In this document: positions 12,299 through 22,602 of the stretch, piece after piece
How positions within the stretch are numbered: position 1 is the first letter of the stretch
How the letters are laid out: each line of letters opens with the position of its first letter
The notes under the pieces: model-generated
Database searches by the model: none
Seen by the model: only the letters and a program-made list of their open reading frames with translations
Told to the model about the DNA's origin: nothing
Made by a program: the position numbers and the translations under genes
Origin: an uncultured Opitutaceae bacterium
Lineage (GTDB): Bacteria; Verrucomicrobiota; Verrucomicrobiia; Opitutales; Opitutaceae
DNA: 38,441 nucleotides
Direction of reading: 5' to 3'
Assembly (NCBI GenBank): GCA_903916755.1
Contig: CAIWXW010000098.1
Location: 1-38,441 of the forward strand

Positions 12299-14149
12299 CT
12301 ACGGCGCGGCCGCATCCCGGGCGGCCTGGACCCGCGCCAGGCTCTCCCGGATCGCCGCGTCGCCGGGACGCAGCCGGACGGCTTCCTGGAGCTGGGCGGC
12401 GGCCTCCCGCAGCCGCCCGGCGTGCGCGAGGGCGATCCCAAAATTATTGCGCGAGGCGGCGTCCGCCGGCTCCAGGGCGACGGCCTGCTGGTAGCTTGTC
12501 GCCGCCGCCGCGGGCTGGCCCAGCTTGAAGAACGCGCTGCCCAGGGTGTTGAGCGCGTCCGGATAGTCCGGCCGCGCGGCGAGGGCCGCCCGCTCGTGCG
12601 CCACGGCCTCGTCCGCCCGGCCGGCGGCCAGCAGGGCCAGCCCGAGATTGTACTGCGCCTCCGCGTAGCGCGGCGCCGTCGCCACCGCCCGGAGGTACTC
12701 GGCGATCGCCTCGTCGGTCCGGCCCGCCCGCAGGAGAAGGGTGCCCAGGCCGTTGTGGGCCTGCGGGTAGCCCGGATCGAGCCGGGCGGCCGTGGCGTAT
12801 TGCTCCCACGCCCCAGCCGCGTCCCCGCTCTTCAGCAGGACGGCACCGAGATAGCCATGCGGCCGCGCCGCCGCCGGCCGTCGGGCCACCGTGTCCCGCC
12901 AGAGCCGCAGGTCACTCCCGTACACCGCATTGCGCCGAAACGTCAGGATGCCGTAGGCCGCGGCCAACGGCAGGCAGACGGCGCAGCAGACCAGGATGAC
13001 CCGCCCGCCCGCCCGCCGGGCTGCTTCCGCCAGCGCCAGGACCAGCAGCGCCCAGACGGCCGCCAGCGGCAGGTACATGCGGTGCTCCACGATCATCTGG
13101 GTCGTGCCGGGAATGACACTCGAGGTCGGGGCCAGGATCAGGAAGAACCAGCAGCCCAGAAACCCCAGCGCCCGGTGGCGCCGGCCGCAGGTGGCGGCGA
13201 CAGTCAGGCCCAGCAGCAGCCCGATCATCACCGCCGCGGGCACAACCTCGCCGGCGCCGCGGATCCAGAGGGTGCCATAGTCAAAGATCAGCGGATGGGG
13301 CCAGACCGACAGCCGGAGGTAGCGGACCAGCGCCGGGAACTGCGTGAGCGCGTAGGCCCACCAGGGCACGCCATTGCCGAAGCCGATCGAGCCCCCGCGA
13401 TTGTGCGTGCCGAGCATCAGGGCGCCGAGCAGGAGCCAGGTGGCCGCGAGCCCCCCGTGGCAGCCGCGTCGCGCGGCCCACGCCCCGCGGAAGGAGCCGG
13501 CGAGGAAGGCGCGGTCGTAGAGCAGGACGAGCAGCGGCGCCGCCACCATCACCTCCTTGGTCGCCATCCCGGCGGCGCAGGCCGCCACCGCGGCGACCGC
13601 CCAGGCCGCCCGGGCCCCGCCCGCGCCCGGCGGCGACTCTGCGTGCCGAATAAACGAATACAAGGTCAGCAGGAAAAACAGGCCCATCAGCGACTCCGCC
13701 CGTTGGATGGTGTAGGTCACCGCCTCGGTCTGCAGCGGGTGCACCGTCCACAGGAGCGCCACCAGGCCGCCCAGGACCGCCGGTGGCAGCGGGCCGCCGT
13801 CGCCGGGGGCCCGCTCCAGCGTCCGGCGCACGATCCCGAAGAGCGCCAGCCCGGCCAGCAGGTGGATCAGGAGGTTGCCGGCGTGGTAGCTCCAGACCGC
13901 CGGGCCGCTGATCGCGTAATTCAGGGCCAGCGACAGGTTCAGGATCGGCCGGCCGCCCACCGTCTGCCCGCCGGCAAAGGGCGGGTGGAGCACCGCCCCC
14001 AGGTCCCCCAGGTGCCGGATCGACCGATTTTCCAGGATGGAGCCCGCATCATCGTAGGTGAAGGGCCCCCTGAAGCTGCCGGCGTACGCCGCCAGGCCGG
14101 CCAGCACCAGGATCACGGCCATCAGCCGGCGGACCGCCGGGGCCTTCAT
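12299..14149 (-). CDS. TMTC-like polytopic membrane protein with C-terminal TPR repeats (short paralogue)
   Basis: 616 aa. The first roughly 410 residues are a polytopic membrane domain resembling GT-C glycosyltransferases. FTYDDAGSILENRSIRHLGDL after the first helix carries an acidic DD pair where GT-C enzymes keep their catalytic acid. LLWTVHPLQTEAVTYTIQRAESL matches the conserved block of TMTC-type proteins. The C-terminal part has about six 34-residue TPR units (for example AHNGLGTLLLRAGRTDEAIAEY), probably periplasmic. By analogy it could transfer a sugar from a lipid carrier to a protein or envelope glycan, but no substrate can be deduced. Its ATG overlaps the stop of the longer upstream paralogue by 4 nt. 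Confidence 0.7.
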   Translation of the reverse strand: MKAPAVRRLMAVILVLAGLAAYAGSFRGPFTYDDAGSILENRSIRHLGDLGAVLHPPFAGGQTVGGRPILNLSLALNYAISGPAVWSYHAGNLLIHLLAGLALFGIVRRTLERAPGDGGPLPPAVLGGLVALLWTVHPLQTEAVTYTIQRAESLMGLFFLLTLYSFIRHAESPPGAGGARAAWAVAAVAACAAGMATKEVMVAAPLLVLLYDRAFLAGSFRGAWAARRGCHGGLAATWLLLGALMLGTHNRGGSIGFGNGVPWWAYALTQFPALVRYLRLSVWPHPLIFDYGTLWIRGAGEVVPAAVMIGLLLGLTVAATCGRRHRALGFLGCWFFLILAPTSSVIPGTTQMIVEHRMYLPLAAVWALLVLALAEAARRAGGRVILVCCAVCLPLAAAYGILTFRRNAVYGSDLRLWRDTVARRPAAARPHGYLGAVLLKSGDAAGAWEQYATAARLDPGYPQAHNGLGTLLLRAGRTDEAIAEYLRAVATAPRYAEAQYNLGLALLAAGRADEAVAHERAALAARPDYPDALNTLGSAFFKLGQPAAAATSYQQAVALEPADAASRNNFGIALAHAGRLREAAAQLQEAVRLRPGDAAIRESLARVQAARDAAAP

Positions 14150-16293
14150 GGTCCCGGAGTGCGCGGCAGCGACCGCAGCCGGGCCAGATTCCGCTGGGCG
14201 TCGGCGTAGTCCGGCCGCAGCCGGACCGCCGCCTCGAATTCATAGCCGGCCTCGCCGAGGCGGCCCAGCTGCGCCAGGGTGCCGCCGAGATTGTTGTGGG
14301 TCGTGGCGTCATCCGGCGCGAGCCGCAGCGCCTGCTGGTACTCGGCCACCGCCTCCGCGAGCCGCTGCATCCCCACCAGGGCGTTGCCCAGGCTCGCATG
14401 CGCCTCTGCGTAGGCCGGCCGGATCCGAATGGCCTGCTGGAGATTGGCGATCGCCTCCGGCAGCTGGTCCGCATCGATCAGGGCGCTGCCCAGGCTGTTG
14501 TACGCCTCGGCGTCCCGCGGATTGAGCCGGAGCGCCGCCTGGTACTGCTGGATCGCCTCCGGCACCCGGTGCAGCTGCACCAGCGCATTGCCGAGATCGT
14601 CATGGGCGTCCCCGTAGTCGGGGCGCCGCCGCAGCACTTCCCGGTAGCGGGCGACCGCCCCGTCCAGCTGCCCCGCCTGCTCAAGGGCGATGCCCAGGTT
14701 GAGTTCGGCATCGGGATAGTCCGGCTGCAGCCGCAGCGCCTCCTGGAACTGCGCGATCGCCTCCGGCACATGGTTGGTCTGGGCCAGGACGTTCCCGAGA
14801 TTGTTGTGCGCCTGCGCAAACCGGGGCCGGAGCCGGATCGCCTCGCGATACTCCGCACCCCCCTCGTCGGTCCGGCCCAGGGCCGTCAGGGCGATCCCGA
14901 GGTTGTTGTGGGCCTCGGCGTAGCTGGGCTGGATCTGCAGCGCCGCCCGATACTGTGCGATCGCCCCCGGCGCGTTTCCCTCAGCGTACAAGACCACCCC
15001 CAGGTTATAGTGGGCGTATTCGTTGGCCGGGTGCTTCGCGACCGTGTCCGTCCAAATAGACTCCTCGGTGCGGTAATCGTAGTTGCGCGCGAGCGTGCCT
15101 CCCACCGCCGCCAGGGCCAGGACCGTCGCCAAGGCGGCCGCCAGCGCCCGCGGGCCGCGCCGCCGCAGGCGGCCGCCCACCCCGACGACCCCCAGCGCGA
15201 TCAGGGCGGCCAGGGGCAGGTACATCCGGTGCTCGGCCGCGGTCTGGCGGATGCCCGGCACGATGCTGCTGGTCGGCGCCAGGATCACGAAGAACCAGGC
15301 CCCCAGGAACCCCAGCACGGGCCGGCGCCGCAGCGCCCAGACCGTCGCGGCCAGAAGAGCCAATACGACGACCGCATAGGGCACGACATCCCAGGCGCCC
15401 TGGGCCCATTCCGTGCCGTAATCGAAGACCAAGGGAGACGGCCAGAACGCCAGTTTCAGGTAGCGGGCCACGGCCCGGAACTGGCTCAGCGCATACTGCC
15501 ACCACGGGATCGCCACCCCGAAGCCGATCGATCCCCCGCGGTTGCCGCCCGTCCCGCCCACCAGCCAGGCCAGGAGGAGCCAGGTGGCCGCCAGCCCAAG
15601 GTGCAGCCGGCGATGGCGCCTCCAGGCGGCCTTGAACGAGCCGCTGACGAACGTCCGGTCGTAGAGGAAGACCAGGACCGGCGCGGTCACCATGGTCTCC
15701 TTGGTCGCCATGCCCGCCAAACACGCCAGCCCCGCCAGCCAGAACCAGGGTCCGGCGGACCGGGCCGGAGCCTCCTCGCCGTCCGCCCCCCGGACGAACC
15801 CGTAAAAGGTCAGCAGAAAGAACAGCGCGGCCAGCGACTCCGCCCGCTGGGCGATATAGGTGACCGACTCGACCTGGAGCGGATGCACCGTCCAGAGCAG
15901 CGCAATGACGCCGGCCAGGCCCGCGGCCGCCTCCACCTTCATCCGGCGCAGGGTGCGATGCGCCAGGCCCAGGAGGGTCAGGCCCGCCAGCAGGTGGAAA
16001 AGCAGGTTGGCCGCGTGATAGCTGCCCACGTGCGTGCCGGTGAGGGCATAGTTGACCGCCAGCGAGAGATTGAGGAGGGGCCTTCCGCTCGTCGTCGCGC
16101 CATTCAGCGCCGGCGGCGACAGGACCGTGCCGAGGTCACCCAGGTGCCGGATGGAGAGGTTCTGAACGATCGACGGCTGGTCATCGAAGAGGAAGGGAAC
16201 CGCCAGGCTATCCGCGTAAGCCACGATGCCCGCGGCCGCGATCAGGGCTCCCAGCAGCAGGAGGGTTCGGCGGGTTTCCCCGGGGCCAGGCAT
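14146..16293 (-). CDS. TMTC-like polytopic membrane protein with nine TPR repeats (long paralogue)
   Basis: 715 aa, clearly homologous to the following gene over the membrane domain (FLFDDQPSIVQNLSIRHLGDL and LLWTVHPLQVESVTYIAQRAESL). The membrane part takes about the first 410 residues with ten or so hydrophobic segments. The rest is about nine TPRs with the regular AHNNLG / AEAHxxLG pattern, three more than the paralogue. It is first in the pair as transcribed. The DD pair near the N terminus is kept, so both copies may be active. A possible alternative is a structural scaffold without transferase activity. No good SD or promoter is obvious in the 60 bp upstream, which is directly followed by the receptor gene's terminator. 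Confidence 0.7.
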   Translation of the reverse strand: MPGPGETRRTLLLLGALIAAAGIVAYADSLAVPFLFDDQPSIVQNLSIRHLGDLGTVLSPPALNGATTSGRPLLNLSLAVNYALTGTHVGSYHAANLLFHLLAGLTLLGLAHRTLRRMKVEAAAGLAGVIALLWTVHPLQVESVTYIAQRAESLAALFFLLTFYGFVRGADGEEAPARSAGPWFWLAGLACLAGMATKETMVTAPVLVFLYDRTFVSGSFKAAWRRHRRLHLGLAATWLLLAWLVGGTGGNRGGSIGFGVAIPWWQYALSQFRAVARYLKLAFWPSPLVFDYGTEWAQGAWDVVPYAVVVLALLAATVWALRRRPVLGFLGAWFFVILAPTSSIVPGIRQTAAEHRMYLPLAALIALGVVGVGGRLRRRGPRALAAALATVLALAAVGGTLARNYDYRTEESIWTDTVAKHPANEYAHYNLGVVLYAEGNAPGAIAQYRAALQIQPSYAEAHNNLGIALTALGRTDEGGAEYREAIRLRPRFAQAHNNLGNVLAQTNHVPEAIAQFQEALRLQPDYPDAELNLGIALEQAGQLDGAVARYREVLRRRPDYGDAHDDLGNALVQLHRVPEAIQQYQAALRLNPRDAEAYNSLGSALIDADQLPEAIANLQQAIRIRPAYAEAHASLGNALVGMQRLAEAVAEYQQALRLAPDDATTHNNLGGTLAQLGRLGEAGYEFEAAVRLRPDYADAQRNLARLRSLPRTPGP

Positions 16294-16354: not shown

Positions 16355-16386
16355 AAAAAAAGGCGGCCGCATTGCTGCGGCCGCCT
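16355..16386 (-). terminator. rho-independent terminator of the TonB-dependent receptor gene
   Basis: On the minus strand a perfect 10-bp GC stem (AGGCGGCCGC / GCGGCCGCCT, 16361-16370 with 16377-16386) with a 6-nt loop is followed by seven T residues. It lies 24 nt beyond the receptor stop codon and separates that gene from the TMTC-like pair. Confidence 0.9.
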
Positions 16387-16409
16387 CGAGATCAAAAAGT
16401 ACCGGCTTC

Positions 16410-19400
16410 TTAGAAGTCCAGCTTGGCGCCGATTTCGGCCTGGTACCGGGAGAGATCGGTAAAGGTCGTGACCGGGTCGAGCGTGTTCGAGTTGAAGTAG
16501 TAGATGTACTGGCCCTGGCCGCCGTTGCCGGCCGCGTTGTAGCTGGCGCCCGCCACGCGACGGTAGTACGGGAAGTCCTCGCCGCTCACGATGCCCCAGC
16601 TGCGATTGAAGAGATTCGCGAAGTTGGTGCAATCGACGTACAGCGAGAGGCGGGCGTGGCCCGTGATCGGGATGCGCTGCTCGAGATGGACGTCGATCGT
16701 GTGCTCCCAGGGGCTGTAGGCCGTGTTGCGGCCGACAATCTTGCCCATCTCGTTGCGCAGGGACGAGGTCGACAGCCAGCTGAAGAAGTTGGCTTCCTCC
16801 GTCGCGCTGTTCCAGCCGACCTTCGGGTCGCTCGGGCCCGAGGGGACGTAGAACAGATCGTTGCTGCTGAATCCGTCGCCGTTGGCGTCACCCGTGAAGG
16901 TCCAGGTGTAGGGATGGCCGCTCTGCACGCGGAAGACCGCGGTCAGGACCGTCTTGGCCTTCGCGTCGTTGAAGAAGTTGAACTGGCGCGAGAGCTGCGC
17001 GACGAACTTCTGCGGGACGTTGTAGTCGGAGGTGGCCGCGACATCCTCGTTCGGATTGGCGTAGGCGCGGCTGGTGAAGTTCGACGAGGCCACCGACGAG
17101 CGCAGGGCGCTCACATCGGTCGCGTGCTCATGCGTCCAGTAGAACGAGAAGGACCAGTCGTGGATCATCGGCCGGGCAATCGCCAGGGTCGTGTCGGCCG
17201 ACATGCCATGGTCGGTGTTCACGAGCTCGTAGGCGTTGTTGAAGTTCGTGTTCTGCACCAGGGTCGCGGACCCGGCCGAGGTCGACGAGGTCGGGACACC
17301 CACGACACCGGTGTTGAAGCCGGGGTAGATGTTGCCGTTGAAGCGCTGGCGGCCGTCCGGCATGAACTGCGAGCCGGAGGTGGCGCGGAGCTGGTTCCAG
17401 ACCTTCCAGCTGGCGGCCTTCTCGACGCGCAGGTAGTCCTGCTCGGCCGTGAAGACCAGGTTCAGCCAGGGCAGCTCATGATCGATCGCGATGTTGGTCT
17501 TCCACGACGCCGGCGGCTTGAAGCCCTTCTGGACGAAGTTGAGGATCGGCACCGGGGGGCTGCCCGCGGGAACCTGCTGGGTGAACGGGTTCGGATTGAA
17601 CGTCAGGGTCGCATCGACCGCCGCCGTCGGGGTGACGCGGCCAAGGGTGCCGTTCATGTCATAGGAGTCCGCCAGCCACACCGCGGGGTTCGTGCCCTGG
17701 AAGAGGCCGGCGCCGCCGCGGACCTGGGTCTTGAGACCATCCATCTTCGGGAGATCGTAGTTGAACGAGAGCCGGGGCTCGACGGTGTAGTTGCCGTTGT
17801 CCGTGTAGGTGTTGTTATAACCGAACGCGTTGACGAACGGGGCATTGTAGAGCGGCTTGTTCGAAACGTACGGGTCGTCCACGCGGACGCCGTAGGTCAG
17901 GGTCAGCTTGTCCGAAGGACGCCACTGGTCCTGGATGCCGGCGCCGAAGATGGTGTACGCGAAGTTGGCGAAGGCCGCCGAGATCGGGTTGCCATTGAGG
18001 CCGGTCGCCAGGGAGTAGGACGTGATGCCGTTGCCCGCGGCGAACGCGGCGGCATTGTTGAACGTGTAGCTGCCGTAGGCGGCCTGGACGAAGTCATCCA
18101 GGGCCCAGCTGCGGTCGGAATCCACGCCGGCGGTGATCTTGTGATTGCCGATCGTGTAGTCGCCGTAGAACTTGCCGACCGTGTCGCTCGTGAAGGTCAG
18201 GTTCAGCTGGCGGGAGAATTCCGTGCCGAGGTGGACGGTGCCCGAGGTGGTGGCGGCGCCGGTCGCGACGATCGTGCCGGGGACGTTCGCGATGAACACC
18301 TCGGGGAACGGCGTGCCGTTGTTGATCGGGGAGGCCACATACTTGGTGTATTCGGCCGTCAGCTCCGTGTGGAGGTCAGGCGTCCAGTTCGAGTCGATCT
18401 GGGCTTCCCAGGCGTTCGTCAGGCGGGGCTGCTGGTACCAGTAGTTGCTGAGGGACGTCGTGCCGGAGGCGTTGAAGCTCGCGAACTGCGGGACGGTCGT
18501 GTCGTTGCGCCGGTAGGTGACCGACAGGCGGTGCTGGTCGGAGATGACCCAGTCGATCTTGCCGACGTAGGTCTTGCCGGTGCTCAGCGCGTTGGCGTTC
18601 AGGTTGCCGGCGGCGTAGTTATACTTGGTCTGCGCGGTGGAGACGATCGAGGCCAGGGTGGTGGCGTCCGGGACGTAGGCCGGGCTCGGCGGCGCCGAGA
18701 CGTTGTGGATGTAGTCGTAGGCGAAGAAGAAGAAGAGATGGTTCTTGATCAACGGGCCGCTGAACGTGGCGGTGTCGCGGTAGTTGCGATAGGTCTCCTG
18801 GGCTCCCGTGACCGGGTTCTTGCCGCGCAGGGCCTGGTCGGAGTAGGAGTAGCGGAAGGAACCGTGGAAGTCATTCGTGCCGGATTTGATGACCGCGTCA
18901 ATCAGGGCGCCGGTGAAGCCGGTGAACTGGATGTCGTAGGGGTCGAGCTGAATCGAAACGGACTGCAGGGCGTCGTACGGAATCGGGCTGAACCAGGAGG
19001 ACGTCCCGTTGCCGTTGAGGCCGAAGGTGTCGTTCACCTGCACGCCGTCGATCAGGTAGGAGTTGTAGCGGTAGTTCTGGCCGGCCGCGCTCAGCTGGTA
19101 CTCACCGGTGGAAGTATTCTCCACCAGGGTGAAGCGCGAGTCGTTCTGGGCCAGATCCTGCAGATCCTGGCGGATGCTGGGGGTCTGGGTGACGGCGTAG
19201 GCGTCAAGAGTGTTGACCGTGCCGGTCTTGTTCACCCCGAAGGTGTCGCCGCGCTCTTCCTGGACGCTCATGGCCTCGAGGGTGATCACCTCGGAGCTGA
19301 CCGTGAAGTTAACGTCGGGCGTGGTGCCGAGCTCGATGTAGGTGCCCGCCTGGGTCGAGGGCGCCATGCCGGGGGCCGAGACCGTGATGGAGTAGGGCCC

Positions 19401-19640
19401 ACCGAGGCGCAGACCGGAGAAGTTGTACTCGCCGTTGCCCTGCGTGACCGCAGTGGAGCGGGAATTGGTCGACGTGTTGGTCGCGACAACCGTCGCGCCG
19501 GCAACTGCCTTGCCACCCTTATCGGTGACGAAGCCGGCAATTGAGCCCGTCGTGGCGCTCTGACCGAAGACGCTATTGGTGAGTACGAAAAGCAGGGCAA
19601 AGAGCCCCGCCAGCAGGTATCGCGGTGATTTGTAATGCAT
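16410..19640 (-). CDS. Oar-like TonB-dependent outer-membrane receptor with N-terminal carboxypeptidase-regulatory-like domain
   Basis: 1076 aa. A signal peptide (about 1-26, ending SVFGQS) is followed by a transthyretin-like domain (about 30-118, GSIAGFVTDKGGKAVAGATV). A plug-like region comes next (RYNSYLIDGVQVNDTFGLNG), then a long beta-barrel rich in alternating aromatic residues that ends in Phe, as required for BAM insertion. The TTR-plus-barrel architecture matches Oar-type receptors, used for export or import of large substrates. The ligand is unknown, and no substrate-binding SusD partner is encoded nearby. It is divergent from an ECF sigma factor, but no anti-sigma gene lies next to either. 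No strong ribosome-binding site is seen before the ATG at 19640. Confidence 0.85.
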   Translation of the reverse strand: MHYKSPRYLLAGLFALLFVLTNSVFGQSATTGSIAGFVTDKGGKAVAGATVVATNTSTNSRSTAVTQGNGEYNFSGLRLGGPYSITVSAPGMAPSTQAGTYIELGTTPDVNFTVSSEVITLEAMSVQEERGDTFGVNKTGTVNTLDAYAVTQTPSIRQDLQDLAQNDSRFTLVENTSTGEYQLSAAGQNYRYNSYLIDGVQVNDTFGLNGNGTSSWFSPIPYDALQSVSIQLDPYDIQFTGFTGALIDAVIKSGTNDFHGSFRYSYSDQALRGKNPVTGAQETYRNYRDTATFSGPLIKNHLFFFFAYDYIHNVSAPPSPAYVPDATTLASIVSTAQTKYNYAAGNLNANALSTGKTYVGKIDWVISDQHRLSVTYRRNDTTVPQFASFNASGTTSLSNYWYQQPRLTNAWEAQIDSNWTPDLHTELTAEYTKYVASPINNGTPFPEVFIANVPGTIVATGAATTSGTVHLGTEFSRQLNLTFTSDTVGKFYGDYTIGNHKITAGVDSDRSWALDDFVQAAYGSYTFNNAAAFAAGNGITSYSLATGLNGNPISAAFANFAYTIFGAGIQDQWRPSDKLTLTYGVRVDDPYVSNKPLYNAPFVNAFGYNNTYTDNGNYTVEPRLSFNYDLPKMDGLKTQVRGGAGLFQGTNPAVWLADSYDMNGTLGRVTPTAAVDATLTFNPNPFTQQVPAGSPPVPILNFVQKGFKPPASWKTNIAIDHELPWLNLVFTAEQDYLRVEKAASWKVWNQLRATSGSQFMPDGRQRFNGNIYPGFNTGVVGVPTSSTSAGSATLVQNTNFNNAYELVNTDHGMSADTTLAIARPMIHDWSFSFYWTHEHATDVSALRSSVASSNFTSRAYANPNEDVAATSDYNVPQKFVAQLSRQFNFFNDAKAKTVLTAVFRVQSGHPYTWTFTGDANGDGFSSNDLFYVPSGPSDPKVGWNSATEEANFFSWLSTSSLRNEMGKIVGRNTAYSPWEHTIDVHLEQRIPITGHARLSLYVDCTNFANLFNRSWGIVSGEDFPYYRRVAGASYNAAGNGGQGQYIYYFNSNTLDPVTTFTDLSRYQAEIGAKLDF

Positions 19641-20074: not shown

Positions 20075-20818
20075 ATGAATACCACGACCTCCCCCGCCCC
20101 GACCCAGACCGCTCCGTCCGCCGCCCGTACCGAACGCTCGATCGCCGCTCAGGCCGGAGCCGCTCATGACGCCGAGTTGGTCAGCCGCTTCAACAAGGGC
20201 GAGGAGTCCGCCTTTCTGGAGATCATGACCCGGTATCAGGCCAAGATCTTCACCGTGACCCAGGGGCTGCTCCACAACCGGGGCGATGCCGAAGAGATCA
20301 CCCAGGACACCTTCGTCCGCGCCCACCGCAATCTCGGGGGCTTCCGCGGGGATTCCTCGCTCGCCACCTGGCTGCACCGGATCGCGGTCAACCTGGCCCG
20401 CAACCGTTACTGGTACTTCTTCCGCCGCCGCCGGCACGCCACGCTCTCCCTCGACTGCCCGATCAGCGACGAAAGCGACGCCACCCTCTCCGACCTGATC
20501 TGCGCCGACGCGCCCGATCCGGCCCGGATCAGCACCCGCGAGGAGTTCGGTACCCTGGTTTCCGAGTGCATGGACACCCTCGAGTCCCACCACCGCGAGG
20601 TGCTGGTCCTCCGGAATGTCCACAACCATTCCTACGACGAGATCGCCGCCCGCCTGGGGATCAACGTCGGCACGGTCAAGAGCCGGATCGCCCGAGCCCG
20701 GGAAAGCCTTCGCGTGAAGCTGGCGGAAACCTGCCCGGAGTTCGCCCCGGATGCCGACCCCTCCGACTGGTTCGAGCCCGTCCGCAATCCGGGCCGCCTC
20801 GTGCCGGCCTGGGCCTAA
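20075..20818 (+). CDS. ECF-type RNA polymerase sigma factor (RpoE-like)
   Basis: 247 aa, slightly long because of a roughly 30-residue Thr/Pro/Ala-rich N-terminal leader. Sigma region 2 spans about residues 35-110 (AFLEIMTRYQAKIFTV, DAEEITQDTFVRAHRNL, ATWLHRIAVNLARNRYWYF). Region 4 spans about 165-225 (LESHHREVLVLRNV, SYDEIAARLGINVGTVKSRI), the helix-turn-helix that binds the -35 element. The tail of about 25 residues is rich in Asp and Pro. No anti-sigma factor gene follows: a terminator comes next and then a convergent gene. Regulation may therefore be transcriptional, or through an anti-sigma factor elsewhere. The divergent receptor gene is an obvious candidate target, by position only. 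Confidence 0.9.
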   Translation: MNTTTSPAPTQTAPSAARTERSIAAQAGAAHDAELVSRFNKGEESAFLEIMTRYQAKIFTVTQGLLHNRGDAEEITQDTFVRAHRNLGGFRGDSSLATWLHRIAVNLARNRYWYFFRRRRHATLSLDCPISDESDATLSDLICADAPDPARISTREEFGTLVSECMDTLESHHREVLVLRNVHNHSYDEIAARLGINVGTVKSRIARARESLRVKLAETCPEFAPDADPSDWFEPVRNPGRLVPAWA

Positions 20819-20913: not shown

Positions 20914-22602
20914 CTAATAGGTGGGCGTCGCCAAGGGGCTGTTCACGTCCGCACTGCCCACCCCCACGATCCGCCAGTTATTGACCGGGGTCGAGGGGAT
21001 CACATGGTGCCGTTCCACCCAGTCGATCAACAGATCGCGGATGGGCACGCTGGCCCGCATGACGACGGGTGCGGTCTTGAACATCGCGTACCCGCCGCCA
21101 CCGCTGTAGCGGTAGTTGTTCATCGCCAGTCGGAAGGTCTGGTCGGGCTGCAGCGGCGCCCCGTGATACATAAGATGCTGGATCCGATCACCATAGGGAC
21201 GACTAATGTCCATTTCGTAGGAGACGCCCTCGGCCTTGTCGAAGTTGTAGAGATAGAAGTCAGGGTTCACCAGCTGGCTCAGGGTCTTGCCGGGCGCATA
21301 GGGCAGGAAAAACCGCGCCGAATGCTCCAGGGCCTCCTTCAGCTGCCGGCCGGTGGCCTGCACGACGACCAGGGTATTCTCATACACATAGAGGGCGGCC
21401 AGCTCCCGCACCGTCGTCTGCCCCGCGTGGATCCGCGCCTGGGGGTTGAAGACCGACGCCAGCGAGACGTCCGCCGAGCCCGCCTCCAGCTGCACCCGCT
21501 GGACCAGGTCGAGCATGGCCGAATCCGCGAAATTTGAGCGGGAATCGAGATCACGGTCACAGGTGCCCACGGGTTGGGACAGCCAGCGCTCGGTCTCCTC
21601 ATGATAGGGCTTGGCCAGCCGAAGAACCTCCGGATCGGGGGTGACGCCCTGCATCGAGAGCGAGACGCTGGACTTGGCCGTGACCTGCCAGGCCCCACCG
21701 CCCGCCCGCTCGAAATAGAGGTCGGCCTTGATGAGGTGGTCGCCCCACCGCCCCGCCTGCGCCAGCAGGACACCGTTGACCACCAAATTGGGAACGTCCT
21801 GGTGGGTATGGCCCATCAGGATCAGGTCCACGCCCGGCACCTCGCGGGCGATGGCGATCGCGCGATTCTCATTTGGCACCGCCCCGACGGCGGTGGCACC
21901 CGTGCCCAGGTTCTGCTCGAGACCCATGTGCATGGTGATCACTACCGCGTCGACATGCTCGTCCCGGCGGAGCACGGCGACCCATTTGCGGGCCTCCGCC
22001 ACCGGCTCGCGGAATTCCAAGCCGGGATAGTTTTCCGGACCGTCCCAATAGGGAACACCGGGCGTCGTCAGTCCGAGGATGCCGATCCGCACTCCCTTCA
22101 CCTCCTTGACGATGTAGGGGGTGTAGGCCGATTGGCCGGTGTCCTTGCGGTAGATGTTGGCCGAGATCCACGGAAACCGGGCCTCCGCGTGCGCCTTGTC
22201 CTGCACCGCCAGGCCAAAATTGAAGTCATGGTTGCCCAGCGCCATCGAGTCATAGTGCAGGTAGTTCATCACCAGCATCATGGGGTCGATCGGGGCGTTG
22301 TTACGCCGCGCGTGAAAGTAGACCAGCGGATTGCCCTCCAGCGTGTCGCCGCTGTCCACCAGCAGGAGCCAGGGGTCGTCGGAGCGCAGCCGCTGGAGGA
22401 CACTCGAAATCTTGGCCAGGCCCCCCTCGTACGGAAAATCATTCGAATAATCGACGGGATAGATCCGGCCGTGCAGGTCGGTGGTCGAGGCCAGCGTGAC
22501 GTGGGCGTACGCCGCGCCGTCGGGCGCCGGCGCGGCGCCGAGCGCCGAGGCCAGGCCCAGCAGGGCGACCGGCCAGAGAAGAAGGGCGGCGGGGGTTCTC
22601 AC
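20914..22602 (-). CDS. periplasmic 2',3'-cyclic-nucleotide phosphodiesterase / nucleotidase (CpdB/UshA family)
   Basis: 562 aa from a GTG start with a signal peptide (about 1-23). The metallophosphoesterase core is complete: TTDLHG (Asp42, His44), DSGDT (83-87), GNHDFNFG (123-130), the HMGLE block and GHTHQD. The C-terminal 5'-nucleotidase domain has NNYRYSGGGGYAMF, which clamps the base. TTDLHG and the NNYR-SGGGG loop are more like CpdB (2',3'-cyclic nucleotides and 3'-nucleotides) than UshA, but substrate class cannot be settled by eye. It starts within the stop codon of the upstream nuclease gene (GTGA, 4-nt overlap), so the two proteins are made together. Confidence 0.87.
   Translation of the reverse strand: MRTPAALLLWPVALLGLASALGAAPAPDGAAYAHVTLASTTDLHGRIYPVDYSNDFPYEGGLAKISSVLQRLRSDDPWLLLVDSGDTLEGNPLVYFHARRNNAPIDPMMLVMNYLHYDSMALGNHDFNFGLAVQDKAHAEARFPWISANIYRKDTGQSAYTPYIVKEVKGVRIGILGLTTPGVPYWDGPENYPGLEFREPVAEARKWVAVLRRDEHVDAVVITMHMGLEQNLGTGATAVGAVPNENRAIAIAREVPGVDLILMGHTHQDVPNLVVNGVLLAQAGRWGDHLIKADLYFERAGGGAWQVTAKSSVSLSMQGVTPDPEVLRLAKPYHEETERWLSQPVGTCDRDLDSRSNFADSAMLDLVQRVQLEAGSADVSLASVFNPQARIHAGQTTVRELAALYVYENTLVVVQATGRQLKEALEHSARFFLPYAPGKTLSQLVNPDFYLYNFDKAEGVSYEMDISRPYGDRIQHLMYHGAPLQPDQTFRLAMNNYRYSGGGGYAMFKTAPVVMRASVPIRDLLIDWVERHHVIPSTPVNNWRIVGVGSADVNSPLATPTY

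Follow-up and report, generated by a model that had tools for sequence, protein, structure and literature searches.

What do two overlapping genes encode that each join a polytopic membrane domain of ~408 aa to a tail of TPRs, in the genome of an uncultured Opitutaceae bacterium? The genes, here called A and B, lie within the 38,441-nucleotide stretch of DNA that was analysed (the window; Table 1). The original prediction was that they are paralogues with a GT-C-like membrane domain, similar in layout to the animal TMTC O-mannosyltransferases, and that the presence of two copies reflects two acceptors or a heterodimer.

Table 1. Positions of genes A and B, two of their conserved sites and the neighbouring features in the window
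Feature	Position	Strand	Remarks
Gene B: class-1 GT-C-like membrane domain and ~6 TPRs	12299..14149	-	616 aa
Gene A: class-1 GT-C-like membrane domain (aa 1-408) and ~9 TPRs	14146..16293	-	715 aa
K198-E199 codons of gene A (TMTC motif M4, KE[T/Q]xxT)	15697..15702	-	motif from PMC7801869
Acidic-pair codons D37-D38 of gene A	16180..16185	-	counted from the ATG at 16293
Intrinsic terminator between the OMP gene and gene A (12 pairs, then a T-run)	16360..16387	-	
Oar-like TonB-dependent outer-membrane protein (OMP; PF25183, CarboxypepD_reg, Plug)	16410..19640	-	conserved upstream neighbour of A
Sigma-70-family (ECF-type) sigma factor gene	20075..20818	+	divergent from the OMP gene; conserved there in sister genomes

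Architecture and predicted fold of A and B

A and B are both minus-strand open reading frames, and the start codon of gene B overlaps the stop codon of gene A by four bases (ATGA). They are indeed paralogues, with 51% identity over 597 columns (BLASTP, E 8e-174). Pfam detects many high-scoring TPRs in both proteins, and the sequence past the membrane part corresponds to 9.0 (A) and 6.0 (B) repeats of 34 aa, in agreement with the predicted nine and six. The suggestion that the two differ mainly in TPR length was only partly correct: the membrane domains are 58% identical, the TPR parts 47%, and A and B are not sisters in the tree. The long branches and the lack of a sister grouping also rule out a recent tandem duplication of A and B.

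Searching PDB sequences with the alignment gave nothing but TPR proteins, as did a fold search with the full-length model. Hence, the membrane domain was also folded alone. AlphaFold2 models of A with eleven relatives had a pLDDT of 83.7 for the full chain, and a pLDDT of 75.9 and a pTM of 0.82 for the membrane domain; pLDDT falls below 50 in loops at residues 287–294 and 340–355, which include D291 and E354-H355. Foldseek placed ArnT, AftB, and archaeal and eukaryotic oligosaccharyltransferases (OSTs) at the top; the best match was ArnT (5ezm, E 1e-3, probability 1.00), the probability was likewise 1.00 for AftB and OST, and Pmt1-Pmt2 ranked lower. In a second look (VIA) with the membrane-domain model, all 50 of the PDB matches listed were GT-C proteins, with Z between 10.1 and 19.2 over 273–348 residues. 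OST/STT3, Pmt4 and archaeal OST led, followed by Pmt1-Pmt2, PglB and ArnT. Z was 19.2 for yeast OST, 18.5 for Pmt4 and 16.2 for ArnT; for helical proteins the tool's warning level is about 13–14, and the observed values of 16–19 exceed it. The membrane domain of A and B is thus predicted to have a GT-C fold, as had been proposed.

From the list of helices in the model we count 11 membrane helices in A, together with short interfacial ones. The helices of the TPR part are predicted with pLDDT ~90–98, and its best structural match is the TPR superhelix of OGT (Z 28.1). With the N-terminus inside and an odd number of membrane helices, the TPRs would lie on the outer side of the membrane, in the periplasm.

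Comparison with TMTCs and other GT-C enzymes

How far does the likeness to animal TMTCs extend? TMTC1-4 share with A and B the two-domain layout of GT-C and TPRs, 11 predicted membrane helices (by our count in A), a DD pair in the first outer loop, KExxxT, and ExxxY before TM10 (PMC7801869). The same paper describes seven TMTC motifs, which formed the basis of our comparison with A, and DD, RP, RxE, KETxxT, DY and EHRxY occur in A in the order and register of TMTCs. The anticipated N-terminal acidic pair, M1, is present in both proteins (D37-D38 in A, D33-D34 in B). M4, KE(T/Q)xxT, is complete in A (KETMVT); KE is found in every copy of class 1, the active-site class of A and B, and the third and sixth positions vary. 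A has RxE for the RxD of M3 and, in the TM7-TM8 loop, DY for the DW of M5. M7, ERxxY, reads EHRMY in A, with E and Y in register and R shifted by one. M2, SHKSYRP, reads ATTSGRP, such that SHK is absent and RP alone is conserved. Lastly, the segment between TM7 and TM8 that defines PF08409 (TMTC_DUF1736) has no match in A, B or the rest of the genome at E <= 0.1. The proposed resemblance to TMTCs thus reaches as far as motifs M3–M5 and the predicted helix count, but the Pfam signature of that family is lacking. With no PF08409 match anywhere in the genome and no SHK in M2, we regard A and B as TMTC-like proteins and not as TMTCs; on present evidence, A would work like a TMTC, yet we do not file it as one.

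Conservation of the acidic pair extends well beyond this genome. In 12 class-1 proteins from Verrucomicrobiota, Lentisphaerae, Acidobacteriota and metagenome-assembled genomes (MAGs) of deltaproteobacteria, D37, D38, R71, P72, R150, K198, E199, E354, R356 and Y358 are invariant. The closest matches come from Opitutia/Opitutae MAGs of Verrucomicrobiota, in keeping with a place in or near Opitutaceae. Among paralogues within the genome, aspartate occurs in 35 of 38 at each position of the pair. Neither A nor B matches any GT family in Pfam, including PMT_2 (PF13231). A single paralogue (L024:7600-8859) matches PMT_2, with 29.7 bits against a gathering cut-off of 26.1.

Other known enzymes share parts of this architecture. 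Pmt1, Pmt2 and Pmt4 have the fold predicted for A (Z 17.6–18.5) and, according to PMC7801869, carry an acidic pair (D77/E78) in their first loop, but A lacks their MIR domain and has a TPR tail instead, and identity in the structural alignment is 9–11%. ArnT (5ezm/5f15) also has the GT-C fold, with an acidic pair at the equivalent position (PMC7801869); unlike A, it has no TPRs and acts on lipid A (14–17% identity). Full-length homologues with GT-C and TPR parts have already been noted in many uncharacterised prokaryotes (PMC7801869). AMJ42_05695 from a deltaproteobacterium, to which we liken A and B by its description only, is one such protein of an uncultured bacterium, with a GT-C domain followed by TPRs (PMC7801869). 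What sets the present genome apart from proteins of that type is a large, lineage-specific expansion.

A lineage-specific expansion with two active-site classes

A profile search located the membrane domain at 42 loci on ~27 contigs of the 3.35-Mb genome, which is 93% complete. Some of the loci stand alone, and others form tandem arrays (C104, C114, C175 and the window). At ~1.9 kb each, ~42 copies amount to about 2.4% of the genome by our arithmetic, and animals have four TMTC copies. In complete copies the TPR tail varies in length from about 4.5 to 10 repeats. The family is encoded in each of the 12 other genomes in the genus, with 6–48 copies; among the matches listed, other genera of the family Opitutaceae have 0 to 29 copies and other families of the order mostly none. 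The GT-C and TPR family has thus undergone a lineage-specific expansion. The type of protein is known in print; in the open-access literature, the only remarks on bacterial TMTC-type proteins were those in PMC7801869, and no paper dealt with the expansion or with the split into classes described below.

The aligned copies fall into two classes. Class 1 (16 of 40, including A and B) has the pattern RP..RxE..KE..[DE]Y..EHRxY, with S for H in one copy. In class 2 (24 of 40), the P is preceded by an aromatic residue or L, N replaces the E of RxE, the residue after K is S, G, T or A, the Y has no acid before it, and the last motif is [DN]HxxY or H. Both classes retain the DD pair and the lysine. 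A modelling study of TMTCs assigned two residues to a metal ion (PMC7801869); class-2 copies lack these metal-ligand residues, and copies like A and B keep them (KE..[DE]Y). D37 is replaced by N in three class-2 copies. Three class-1 copies (L010:9550-11598, L010:7804-9510 and L014:6205-8058) have A, G or S in place of D38, and these three group together with support in the tree. Since these three have lost the second aspartate, some copies may be inactive, and the group is possibly an inactive sub-branch.

Several other observations concern the extent of the family. In the arrays on C104, C114 and C175 (L022, L023, L024 and L010), other large proteins are interleaved with the enzyme genes, including a YfhO-like protein (L022:12010-14334) and a TPR protein (L022:14331-16250); there may therefore be more than 42 GT-C-like genes in all. 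A far more divergent homologue of the membrane domain (G000:C63:14407-15768) scores 172 bits, as compared with >400 for nearly all others. Another genome of the genus, G010, has 48 copies in 3.3 Mb, more than the genome studied here.

Gene neighbourhood and candidate functions

Nine genomes of the genus have a full-length relative of the OMP (the one in the window and others at 37–45% identity), and in eight of them a class-1 gene lies immediately downstream on the same strand, followed by up to seven more copies of either class, with some arrays ending at contig ends. The remaining genome (G001) has two such OMPs, with no enzyme gene behind either. In other genera, 5 of 19 OMP loci have a family gene in the same order, three more have nearby copies in the opposite orientation, and the rest have none. 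Genes for the sigma factor, an amidase and IF-3 are also conserved around the OMP locus. A 5ʹ-nucleotidase/UshA-like gene lies beside the sigma factor gene in the window (20914-22602); it is kept in some sister genomes and absent from this position in others. An operon of the OMP gene with A and B is doubtful given the strong terminator between the OMP gene and A, and a terminator of similar shape separates the OMP and enzyme genes in most sister loci. The link between OMP and enzyme is hence one of conserved gene order, not of an operon, and we read it as an old, inherited order with a possible functional tie. Enzyme genes show no general preference for sites behind terminators (3 of 13 versus 6 of 59, p = 0.35). 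Elsewhere in the genome, copies adjoin genes for GDSL lipases, GH28, GH2, a solute-binding protein, GT4, GT9, SLBB or housekeeping functions, and these neighbours fit a dispersed family better than a single operon-bound pathway. A link to PEP-CTERM and exosortase was considered and rejected, as the neighbourhoods contain just a single clear tail of PEP-CTERM type.

What might A and B do? On balance, though by no great distance from even, we favour the reading that they are periplasmic glycosyltransferases that depend on polyprenyl-phosphate sugars and use their TPRs to select acceptors that are secreted or belong to the envelope. The architecture, the predicted fold, the conserved residues, the copy number and the gene order are observations; the activity, the donor, the sugar, a protein acceptor and its selection by the TPRs are inferred. 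A and B would be integral inner-membrane enzymes of GT-C fold, with eleven membrane helices, so that both the catalytic loops and the TPR superhelix would lie on the periplasmic side. A monosaccharide would be donated by a polyprenyl-phosphate carrier; a search for donor synthases identified none and gave only two GtrA-like domains. The DD pair may activate or bind the acceptor, K198, E199, D291 and R356 may handle the carrier phosphate and the metal, and the TPRs would hold the acceptor to which the sugar is moved, most probably a protein that is secreted or part of the envelope.

The main rival to a protein acceptor is that the sugar goes to a polysaccharide or lipid of the surface, such as LPS or exopolysaccharide, and that the TPRs assemble the enzymes with polysaccharide machinery. 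Bacteria have many GT-C enzymes whose targets are glycans or lipids, the best Foldseek match, ArnT, is a modifier of lipid A, and some paralogues adjoin GT9, GT4, YfhO-like or SLBB-domain genes. However, the highest Z values in the second look belong to protein glycosyltransferases, albeit by a small margin over ArnT, there are no polysaccharide genes beside the array in the window, and most copies lie scattered through the genome with unrelated neighbours. We consider this reading rather unlikely. A narrower proposal is that the OMP and the class-1 enzyme are a dedicated pair, the enzyme glycosylating the Oar-like OMP or a protein exported by it. The adjacency described above is retained even though the OMP relatives are only about 37–47% identical to the OMP in the window. 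Moreover, within the genome an enzyme gene lies directly downstream of three of ~16 Plug proteins (in the window, on C37 and on C104), as compared with about 0.2 expected from random placement (P about 0.0015, assuming 3000 genes), and Oar of Myxococcus is needed for protein secretion (PMC6434023). Against this, the terminator parts the two genes in most loci, the conserved IF-3 and amidase neighbours suggest that the order may be merely inherited, and the OMP occurs with no enzyme gene in most other genera and in G001. The Ser/Thr content shows no difference between OMPs that adjoin an enzyme gene and those that do not (p = 0.72), which speaks against the OMP as an acceptor enriched in Ser/Thr when linked; Thr alone gave 0.016, uncorrected, with Ser in the opposite direction, and was not used. 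We judge a dedicated pair to be unlikely.

The least probable alternative, in our judgement, is that A and B form an obligate heterodimer, like yeast Pmt1-Pmt2. The overlap of start and stop codons favours coupled translation, and PMTs function as obligate dimers (PMC12705809). Nonetheless, A and B are not a conserved pair of orthologs, most copies in the genome stand alone, and the syntenic array in sister genomes contains 2 to 8 genes of mixed classes. That array size, and the fact that A and B are just two of about 42 copies, weaken the idea that the pair reflects either two acceptors or a heterodimer.

Returning to periplasmic transfer to proteins, the ~42 paralogues would represent a diversified set, with differing TPR tails and two active-site classes. 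A further extension, speculative and in our view improbable, is a modular repertoire for protein glycosylation: ~42 GT-C enzymes of two catalytic classes, with TPR tails of ~4.5–10 repeats, each tail choosing a single envelope client or a small number of them. Bacteria would then have evolved client-specific glycosyltransferases in greater number than animals, with their four TMTCs. More broadly, the ~42 genes suggest an unusually elaborate and so far unstudied apparatus for attaching sugars to the cell surface. If this is true, they would offer a simple bacterial setting for acceptor choice by TPR-bearing GT-C enzymes, still an open point for the human TMTCs, and would show that such enzymes can proliferate within one bacterial genus, up to dozens of copies that make up about 2% of a genome.
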